A stretch of DNA of 64,000 bases, taken from Hyphomicrobiales bacterium (lineage in GTDB: Bacteria > Pseudomonadota > Alphaproteobacteria > Rhizobiales > Xanthobacteraceae). Made by a program: the position numbers and the translations under genes. Position 1 is the first letter of the stretch. Every line of letters starts with the position of its first letter. Where the stretch lies: the NCBI GenBank assembly GCA_017305715.1, contig JAFKKG010000018.1, positions 124,001 to 188,000 of the forward strand, written 5' to 3'. Shown piece after piece: positions 42,231 to 60,832 of this stretch. The notes under the pieces are model-generated. The model was not told the DNA's origin, did no database searches, and saw only the letters and a list, made by a program, of their open reading frames with translations.

Positions 42231-42929
42231 ATGGACGAATGGATCGACTATTACGATTCAACGCATACGATCTATGCCAGCAAGCTGCATCGCGACCTGC
42301 ATTTCCAGATCATCGCGCGCGACATTATCGGCTACATCCCATCACCAAATGCGGTCGTGCTGGACTATGCCTGCGGAGAAGCGCTGTCGGCGGCCAAGGT
42401 GGCGGACGCCTGCGCAAAACTCTACCTCGCCGAACCCGCGCCCGGCGTGCGTGGCCGGCTGATCGCGCGCTTTGCGCCGAATACGAAAATCCGTGTCCGT
42501 TCGCTCGATGAACTGCGGAATATGGCCGAGCAATCGGTCGATCTCGTCGTCATGAATTCGGTGGCGCAATACATGACGCCGCAAGAACTGGATTTCGCCT
42601 TCGCCGTCGTTCGCCGGCTGCTGAAGCCAGGCGGACTGCTGGTGCTGGGCGATATCCTGCGGCCCGAGGTCGGCATGGGGCGAGACGTGCTGGCGCTGCT
42701 GAAATTCGCCAGCTCCCACGGCTTCCTGACCGACGCCCTATACGGCCTCGCCTCGACCGCGCTGTCGGATTACCGGCAATTGCGCACCCGCGTCGGCCTG
42801 CAGCGCTATAGCGAAAGCGAGATGATCGACAAACTCGGCCGCGCCGGCTTTGCCGCCTCGCGGGCCCAGCACAATATCGGGCACAATCCCTGGCGCATGA
42901 CCTTCCTGGCGCGCCCTCTGGTTCCGTAA
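42231..42929 (+). CDS. Class I SAM-dependent methyltransferase
   Basis: The 232-residue protein has the SAM-binding motif I VVLDYACGEALSA (about residues 42-54; DYACGE is the Gly loop), motif LYLAEPA after strand 2, VDLVVMNSVAQYM (motif post II) and LLKPGGLLVLGDIL (motif III). The N-terminus MDEWIDYYDSTHTIYASKLH is typical of small-molecule methyltransferases. Substrate unknown. It is divergent from dps and 97 bases upstream of the tRNA-like element. Confidence 0.85.
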   Translation: MDEWIDYYDSTHTIYASKLHRDLHFQIIARDIIGYIPSPNAVVLDYACGEALSAAKVADACAKLYLAEPAPGVRGRLIARFAPNTKIRVRSLDELRNMAEQSVDLVVMNSVAQYMTPQELDFAFAVVRRLLKPGGLLVLGDILRPEVGMGRDVLALLKFASSHGFLTDALYGLASTALSDYRQLRTRVGLQRYSESEMIDKLGRAGFAASRAQHNIGHNPWRMTFLARPLVP

Positions 42930-43025
42930 CACCCTTCTTGCGGCGCCCTTCCGGATGACCCTGCCGGTTAGGGTTAATAGGCAGCAAGCATGGCTCACCG
43001 TCCCGTGATCGGTAATGATCGCCTT

Positions 43026-43101
43026 GGCCCGGTGGCGGAAGCGATAACGCGAGAACGGTGCATCGTTCTTTATCCTGGTTCAAATCCAGGCCGGGCCTCC
43101 A
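43026..43101 (+). tRNA. tRNA-Cys-like element with unusual anticodon and D arms
   Basis: A 76-base unit has a perfect 7-bp acceptor (GGCCCGG with CCGGGCC), U8-G9, discriminator T73, encoded CCA, and a perfect T arm CCTGG-TTCAAAT-CCAGG. T73 and a central GCA fit tRNA-Cys. The anticodon arm is odd: AGAAC/GTTCT leaves an 8-base loop (GGTGCATC), or pairing one more G-C leaves a 6-base loop, and the variable region is 4 bases. The D arm has a 3-bp stem and lacks the G18G19 pair. So it is a diverged or decayed tRNA-Cys, or a tRNA mimic; a working elongator is doubtful. It lies upstream of the carB leader. Confidence 0.5.
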
Positions 43102-43184
43102 CGCTTCGCCCTGGCGTAGCTGGGCGCAGCCAAAGCGAAGACGGACCGGGCCGGGCCACCACTACGGCCGGCAAGCCCAAAATT

Positions 43185-43287
43185 CCCGCAAAATCCCCGT
43201 TGATGGCCCTTTTTCGGGGTTTCGCGGGTGCGGAATCTGGTCTAAAGACCACCCGCGCGCGAGGGTAACCCGCGCTCTTGGCTTAGG
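43185..43287 (+). promoter_or_regulatory. carB leader with mutually exclusive hairpins (candidate attenuator)
   Basis: CCCGCAAAATCCCCG (43185-43199) can pair with CGGGGTTTCGCGGG (43215-43228). The segment CGCGGGTG (43223-43230), part of that stem, can instead pair with CACCCGCG (43250-43257). A later arm GCGCGCGAGGGTAACCCGCGC lies before a strong terminator (43288-43317). Competing stems followed by a terminator 27 bases before the carB start are the layout of transcription attenuation. Pairing is by eye only; the signal that would decide between forms is unknown. Confidence 0.5.
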
Positions 43288-43317
43288 GGACGCGCAGCAT
43301 GCGCGCCCTTTTTTTGT
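43288..43317 (+). terminator. Intrinsic terminator between the leader and carB
   Basis: GGG-A-CGCGCA, a GCA loop and TGCGCG-CCC form a long GC stem followed by seven T. It ends 26 bases before the carB ATG, so it must either end an upstream transcript or act as an attenuator for carB. Confidence 0.85.
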
Positions 43318-43343
43318 GCCCAAAATCCAGTCCGCGAGACCTG

Positions 43344-46808
<3,465 letters not shown>

Positions 46809-60755: not shown

Positions 60756-60832
60756 TGGTACAGTTGGGTGGGCTCGAACCACCGACCTCCTGTTCCACAG
60801 ACAGGCGCTCTAACCAACTGAGCTACAACTGC
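60756..60832 (-). tRNA. tRNA-His (GTG)
   Basis: The cloverleaf is complete: acceptor GCAGTTG/CAACTGT with A73 and encoded CCA, D arm, anticodon arm CCTGT-CTGTGGA-ACAGG with anticodon GTG, and T arm with TTCGAGC. G1.U72 and A73 without an encoded G-1 match the alphaproteobacterial tRNA-His type. It forms the right edge of the accessory island, a common integration landmark, but no integrase or attachment repeat is visible. Confidence 0.95.

Follow-up and report, generated by a model that had tools for sequence, protein, structure and literature searches.

Transfer RNAs (tRNAs) that act off the ribosome are known from few cases, mostly with an ordinary anticodon loop. The non-proteinogenic tRNA-Gly isoacceptors of Staphylococcus aureus keep such a loop, and Gly-tRNA is used there by the Fem transferases. 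Here we describe a tRNA-Cys-like gene (the element) with a remodelled anticodon loop, found in a 64,000-nucleotide (nt) stretch of DNA from a Hyphomicrobiales bacterium (GenBank assembly GCA_017305715.1, contig JAFKKG010000018.1, positions 124,001 to 188,000); this whole stretch is the window, and coordinates below follow its numbering. The S. aureus set is its nearest parallel: extra isoacceptors there stand beside the translational one and the GG at positions 18-19 is replaced (PMC4052509), a precedent for a tRNA without G18G19; it differs from the element in its unremodelled loop and in having Fem as the transferase partner. The tRNAOther of Bacillus cereus is likewise a tRNA-like RNA outside translation, described in the consulted part of PMC3399842 as poorly aminoacylated and not on polysomes; unlike the element, which is kept across its order with determinants of cysteinyl-tRNA synthetase (CysRS), it flanks a genomic island and has a Trp anticodon. 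The selC* tRNA-Cys and allo-tRNAs resemble the element as second, odd Cys-type tRNAs with a longer anticodon stem, but their acceptor/T arms are 8/4 or 9/3 and their variable arm is long (PMC7609411), in contrast to the 7/5 arms and short variable region of the element, whose neighbours in the window are a methyltransferase gene and carB rather than selB or cysS. A 6-base-pair (bp) anticodon stem is shared with tRNA-Pyl, to which the element is unrelated: that tRNA has a CUA anticodon, G73 and a dedicated PylRS (PMC7609411). The same review, in the sections consulted, gives anticodon stems as consistently 5 bp and loops as 7 nt, with tRNA-Pyl and one mitochondrial tRNA-Ser as the 6-bp exceptions. 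We found no description of the element in literature on odd Cys tRNAs, pseudo-tRNAs and Bradyrhizobium or alphaproteobacterial tRNA-Cys that took in few subscription papers, and the main texts of two Bradyrhizobium RNA studies (PMC5082802, PMC4842269; supplements outside the scope) contain no word beginning 'tRNA'.

We consider it about an even bet that the element is a second tRNA-Cys of old origin that no longer decodes and serves off the ribosome as a dedicated Cys-tRNA or a tRNA-like RNA. More specifically, we tentatively propose that this ancient second tRNA-Cys of the Hyphomicrobiales (Rhizobiales) is an off-ribosome cysteine carrier that would be charged by CysRS, be barred from decoding by its short loop and feed a predicted transferase that depends on Cys-tRNA, in nitrogen fixers, phototrophs and nitrifiers alike, with some lineages having dropped the anticodon. 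The element is widespread in the order, model organisms included, with its decoding geometry lost and its synthetase determinants kept, and it predicts either an undescribed Cys-tRNA-consuming pathway or an undescribed tRNA-like regulator.

The plus strand at 43026-43101 reads GGCCCGG-UG-GCG-GAAGCGAUAA-CGC-GAGAACG-GUGCAU-CGUUCUU-UAU-CCUGG-UUCAAAU-CCAGG-CCGGGCC-U-CCA, with a D loop, GAAGCGAUAA, that contains no GG. Its minimum-energy fold is a full cloverleaf with an acceptor stem of 7 bp, a D stem of 3 bp, an anticodon stem of 7 bp bearing a 6-nt loop, and a T stem of 5 bp, at -33.4 kcal/mol (z -2.67; 3 of 200 shuffles were equally good), and the alignment of relatives agrees with the fold on the 7/5 acceptor/T arms. 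Letters and fold bear out what an earlier note, made from the bare sequence, had claimed: perfect acceptor and T arms, U73, an encoded CCA, a fit to tRNA-Cys and a D loop lacking GG. The element shares the 7/5 arms and encoded CCA with canonical bacterial tRNA-Cys (GCA anticodon), and its sequence holds all of the CysRS determinants U73, G2-C71, C3-G70 and GCA. In contrast, its anticodon stem runs to 6-7 bp and carries a loop of 6 nt, and it coexists with a canonical gene; three other marks of canonical tRNA-Cys (5-bp anticodon stem, 7-nt loop and U33; G18G19; a match to the Rfam tRNA model RF00005) are absent. ARAGORN calls the plus strand of 43026-43101 'tRNA-???' with a two-base 'anticodon (gc)'. 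The element falls below the gathering score of RF00005, which gives no tRNA match at E<=10 on 42930-43300 (371 bases); because this general model misses it in the window, annotations may overlook or mislabel it. Our own covariance model, R1, among whose sequences is the element itself, scores it at 100.8 bits against 65.9 for the canonical tRNA-Cys of the same genome.

The cloverleaf is kept by selection. In an alignment of 43 relatives, 99.0% of cells are paired, with the acceptor and T stems at 100%, and ten pairs show two-sided changes, including all six aligned pairs of the anticodon stem, the arm in which the earlier note had proposed to look for compensatory changes. Cells with two-sided changes number 71, versus 17.9 in shuffles; none of 500 shuffles comes up to the alignment on even one of the five measures, and at most 57% of cells are paired in slid versions. 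Within the genus the signal is weaker: 19 distinct sequences, under a structure without the extra pair, yield two two-sided pairs, a count reached by 113 of 500 shuffles. Among 30 same-genus loci, mean pairwise identity inside the element is 93% (331 equal-length pairs), whereas the downstream DNA falls to 0.29-0.37 (ungapped) from 11 bp past the element on. That the element is a tRNA pseudogene or the relic of an integration site is extremely improbable: extra copies at scattered other sites in some genomes and the missing Rfam gathering match would fit such an origin, but this fall in identity, the six two-sided anticodon-stem pairs, synteny in most family loci examined and the lack of any match at E<=0.01 among 50,697 phage and 72,556 plasmid records speak against it. 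Unconstrained decay of pairing, as in a tRNA pseudogene, is ruled out by the 99.0% of paired cells and the conservation, and the earlier note was right that this is no decayed pseudogene.

The anticodon arm is lengthened and its loop cut to 6 nt, in some lineages to 4-5 nt, or the loop has 7 nt but lacks U33; the element cannot form a normal decoding loop. The extra, sixth pair of the anticodon stem (columns 35-42) is CG in 13 relatives, GC in 10, UA in eight, UG in four, AU in two, GU in one and something else in five. As this pair covaries across relatives, the loop has 6 nt rather than the 8 that a 5-bp stem would leave; of the '6 or 8' bases and 5-7 bp stem given in the earlier note, the 6-nt reading, with its stem of 6-7 bp, stands and the 8-nt form does not. 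The count of sixth pairs leans towards the typical form because the alignment (A2) omits L131, L134, L138, L140, L143, L147, L149, L151 and second copies, and with them the members whose 7-nt loops lack U33. A pattern search gave 116 distinct sequences, many from few genera, and RNAfold on the anticodon arm alone gives them loops of 6 nt (70 sequences), 4 nt (16), 5 nt (10), 8 nt (9) and 7 nt (11). The pattern misses divergent relatives (e.g., L131, L138, L143, L151, L160, L263, L266, L303, L305, L306 and L312) and itself requires G1, G2, G70, C72 and U73 as well as parts of the T arm, leaving only the loop, GCA and D-loop counts free. Seven distinct Methylopilaceae-type sequences (f35; Methylopila and Hansschlegelia) combine the same acceptor and T arm with a stem of 7-8 bp capped by a GGAA tetraloop. 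In comparison, 22 distinct 74-nt tRNA-Cys controls, for which that length and a D-loop TGG were pattern conditions, all show by eye a 7-nt Y-UGCA loop.

These loops bear on whether the element still decodes, either as an unusual tRNA-Cys for UGC/UGU or by frameshift or quadruplet reading, which we hold to be very improbable. ARAGORN does give 'tgca' quadruplet anticodons for some relatives, L141 and L235 have 7-nt U33-GCA loops, and some second copies in other families have 7-nt loops with U33. Against this stand the covarying pair that closes the 6-nt loop, which rules out quadruplet decoding, the existence of 4-nt loops and of the GGAA lineage, and the canonical tRNA-Cys in the same genome. 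The earlier note had offered a selected tRNA mimic, a CysRS substrate with another job, or a variant that reads codons abnormally. The second of these is the best supported; the third is at odds with the 6-nt loop and its covarying closing pair, the GGAA lineage and the loss of U33 where GCA is kept. That last combination occurs in 14 of the 116 sequences (15 listed less L270), e.g., as CCGCAAA in Afipia (L208).

Bacterial CysRS determinants are given as U73, G2-C71, C3-G70, G34, C35 and A36, and with minihelices U73 alone can confer Cys identity (both from the consulted part of PMC9976931). Most sequences of the element's type keep the known determinants: in the 43 aligned relatives U73 and C3-G70 are present in all, G2-C71 in 40 (G-U in the other three) and GCA in 42, and GCA lies inside the folded loop in 105 of the 116 sequences. 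The 116/116 counts of U73, G1-C72 and C3-G70 are not independent, since the pattern demands these features, and we rely on the 43-sequence alignment for them. Hence, synthetase determinants are retained (U73, C3-G70, G2-C71, GCA) and decoding features, namely loop geometry and GG, are lost. The earlier note's belief that T73 points precisely to tRNA-Cys does not hold in this genome, whose tRNA-Gly genes also end in T-CCA, making U73 not unique to tRNA-Cys.

Chief among the rivals is an RNA with a structural or regulatory role, perhaps one comparable to tRNAOther: an uncharged or incidentally charged tRNA-like RNA acting by its fold, as a decoy or regulator whose target would be CysRS, an enzyme that modifies or processes tRNAs, or a riboregulatory protein. 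We rate this as possible though rather unlikely. The constancy of the acceptor and T arms, the loss of the GCA loop in the Methylopilaceae (GGAA) and the genus g34, and the B. cereus precedent (part of PMC3399842) are in its favour. However, a purely structural decoy need not keep the CysRS set, and yet GCA persists at the frequency noted above, even where U33 is gone, and U73 and C3-G70 are invariant in the alignment.

The cysteine-carrier model would run as follows. A tRNA-Cys was presumably duplicated long ago, and the duplicate left decoding. The gene would be transcribed from its own promoter and the RNA processed; the single CysRS would charge it; loop shape and the missing G18G19 would keep it off EF-Tu and the ribosome; and the Cys-tRNA would then feed a non-ribosomal aminoacyl transfer by a putative acceptor enzyme, by analogy with the staphylococcal cell-wall tRNA-Gly. 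In the Methylopilaceae and g34, which have lost GCA, charging would proceed via the acceptor arm alone or may no longer occur. A strong CysRS match (PF01406) was found exactly once per genome in 19 of 20 genomes, the exception (G289) being a draft of 800 contigs. The same search showed no second CysRS without an anticodon domain in the 20 genomes; weak leftover PF01406 pieces are presumably other class I synthetases.

Several observations weigh against the carrier model. GCA is absent from the seven Methylopilaceae-type sequences, three g34 sequences (CGAC-type loop) and L142 (GAA). GCA-based charging is impossible in the Methylopilaceae-type and g34 forms, which leaves charging through the acceptor arm by itself or a different function of the RNA; because of these forms and L142, donating Cys is not the whole story unless a minihelix suffices. 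The Methylopilaceae-type and g34 sequences group together in the short-sequence tree described below (support 0.88), so that the loss of GCA in both may have been one event. A GG after A14 in the D loop is found in only 24 of the 116 sequences, yet its retention there counts against the model, as do the near-canonical 7-nt U33-GCA loops in L141, L235 and perhaps L270. Second copies in families f41, f23, f36 and f6 (L166, L291, L293, L310, L304, L309) have 7-nt loops with U33 and may still decode. Two genomes, G112 (81% complete) and G503 (84% complete), show odd copies only, with no canonical tRNA-Cys seen. Two same-genus genomes (G006 and G392, about 5.0 Mb each) and many genera of the family show no element, which is thus dispensable. 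Finally, no partner enzyme was found: PF04738 (LanB/PEARL) matched in 0 of 13 genomes, where a silent control keeps this from counting as a true negative, and the Fem and MprF families were not searched.

The host genome (7.45 Mb, 51 contigs, 49 Rfam tRNA matches) carries an ordinary tRNA-Cys(gca) elsewhere (L034), and canonical tRNA-Cys is also present in most relatives looked at. R1 found a match in 110 of 119 genomes of the family sample and two or more in 62 by hand count, the second matches not all being read individually; among the matches listed, many family genomes have a 74-nt match of about 65-74 bits beside the odd copy. In a tree of 38 hand-picked sequences, without L291, L293, L304, L309 and L310, 29 of the 30 odd copies (all but L314) cluster together, separate from the eight canonical-type sequences (split support 0.94), though with about 75 nt the tree is weak; the normal-looped second copy L166 falls with the canonical sequences. 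As the odd copies are separate, the canonical tRNA-Cys is not a recent parent of the element, contrary to one scenario that the earlier note had raised.

A DNA search detected the element in 34 of the 35 other genomes of its genus and in 0 of 24 genomes of other families of the order, and relatives of it in 239 of 391 family genomes, from 26 of 47 genera. A pattern scan of named genomes, its pattern chosen in favour of non-Bradyrhizobium forms, returned 40 stretches from Bradyrhizobium, Rhodopseudomonas, Nitrobacter, Tardiphaga, Afipia, Methylopila, Hansschlegelia and metagenome-assembled genomes; the element in one named Bradyrhizobium record (L218) is identical to that of a same-genus genome (L077), which makes Bradyrhizobium the probable genus of the window. 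Across the order, where R1 was run on 249 genomes and 14 with two or more matches were then examined closely, seven other families yielded second Cys-type tRNAs of non-canonical form. Their loops include GTGCAA (f29, L306; f25, L305; f6, L160), ATGCAA (f14, L312), CGCAA (f52, L303) and CGGCAAA without U33 (f24, L314), and the acceptor stems of L305, L160, L303 and L314 differ from the element's. The 14 genomes also held near-canonical tRNA-Cys (f12, f6), 7-nt loops (f23, f36) and tRNA-Leu cross-hits (second matches in f31, f32 and f15, and one G542 match in f14). Homologues, which the earlier note had made a test of its view, are thus present in the family and the order, with acceptor and T stems fully paired in the aligned relatives. 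A class-wide search at E<=1e-15 matched 1 of 289 genomes, the source genome itself; this cut-off would catch most Methylopilaceae-type members (1e-17 to 2e-15) and misses more divergent members of other families, and so the search does not show absence outside the order. The wide retention across families suggests, as far as sequence comparison goes, a job outside protein synthesis.

Table 1. The element, its parts and its neighbours in the window
Feature	Position	Strand	Basis or remark
Whole tRNA-Cys-like gene with encoded CCA	43026..43101	+	ARAGORN call, R1 covariance model score, fold
Acceptor stem, 5' strand GGCCCGG	43026..43032	+	Partner 43091-43097; 7 pairs all standard, 43/43 aligned relatives
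D arm: 3-bp stem GCG/CGC, 10-nt loop without G18G19	43035..43050	+	Fold
Anticodon stem, 5' strand GAGAACG	43051..43057	+	Two-sided changes in all six aligned pairs; letters checked
6-nt loop GUGCAU, GCA at 43060-43062	43058..43063	+	Fold; GCA in relatives
Anticodon stem, 3' strand CGUUCUU	43064..43070	+	Alignment, fold, letters checked
T arm CCUGG-UUCAAAU-CCAGG	43074..43090	+	T stem paired, 43/43 aligned relatives
Acceptor 3' strand CCGGGCC, discriminator U73 (43098), CCA (43099-43101)	43091..43101	+	U73 43/43
Upstream block kept in genus, GGCTCACC ... GATCGGTAATGATC; putative own promoter	42992..43021	+	Pairwise identity
Class I SAM methyltransferase (Methyltransf_11), upstream neighbour, syntenic	42231..42929	+	Domain match, synteny
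carB, downstream neighbour (longest ORF; conserved start looks like 43345)	43299..46808	+	Not always adjacent

Upstream of the element, identity among the 30 same-genus loci is 0.75 at -11 to -20 and 0.60 at -31 to -40, versus 0.36-0.38 at -61 to -80. This conserved block is possibly what would be expected for a promoter of its own; the sigma-70 consensus found no match upstream of the element. Abutting the CCA end, a hairpin-like sequence, GCCTTCGC/CGCTTCGC (window 43102-43140), is present in nearly all 30 same-genus copies, after which they diverge; it is perhaps a Bradyrhizobium palindromic repeat.

In fetched flanks of 1.5-2.5 kb, the methyltransferase was present at 30/30 same-genus and 37/50 further loci, and carB at 13/30 and 41/50, respectively. 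The element does lie upstream of carB here, as the earlier note had it, but the two are not always adjacent in relatives, and a leader or regulatory element of carB is ruled out by the same-genus count. The frequency of the methyltransferase might indicate a functional unit with the element, e.g., for a dedicated tRNA modification. Such a unit is very improbable: among 35 genomes selected because the element was missing, unlinked or of another family, 22 have the methyltransferase and the element adjoins it at one of those 22 loci, while at E<=1e-25 none of five Methylopilaceae-type genomes with the element has it. Since each occurs without the other, the methyltransferase is ruled out as a required partner.

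The extra copies have no neighbouring gene common to all, although those of G123 and G255 share one locus (CMAS and others). Pfam matches at single extra-copy sites are ABC-F-like, DUF4344, CMAS, metallo-beta-lactamase, a citrate transporter and a GNAT protein, and three proteins near extra copies had no match in this search. The Methylopilaceae-type loci share open reading frames of about 910-940 codons; the one tested had no Pfam match and is possibly spurious.

In Nitrobacter genomes and a relative (G170), together 9 of 248 family genomes, a tRNA-Gly-like gene lies 0.1-0.9 kb from the Cys-like gene (L205, L210, L212, L222, L234, L236, L281-L289), mostly with a 6-nt loop (cc); the loop is of the normal 7-nt kind (tcc) in L236 and L285. 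Elsewhere in the host genome, L031 4903-6508 (G000:C25:268902-270507) holds seven tRNA genes, including UGA-reading (tca), Pro, Arg, Asn, Gly, Tyr and Arg forms; several of them score low with Rfam, and the cluster looks like a mobile-element tRNA array. A tRNA-His-like gene at L074 29-106 (G000:C30:64468-64545) has an 8-nt anticodon loop (tttg) and may not decode normally; an ordinary tRNA-His is encoded on the minus strand of the window at 60756-60832.
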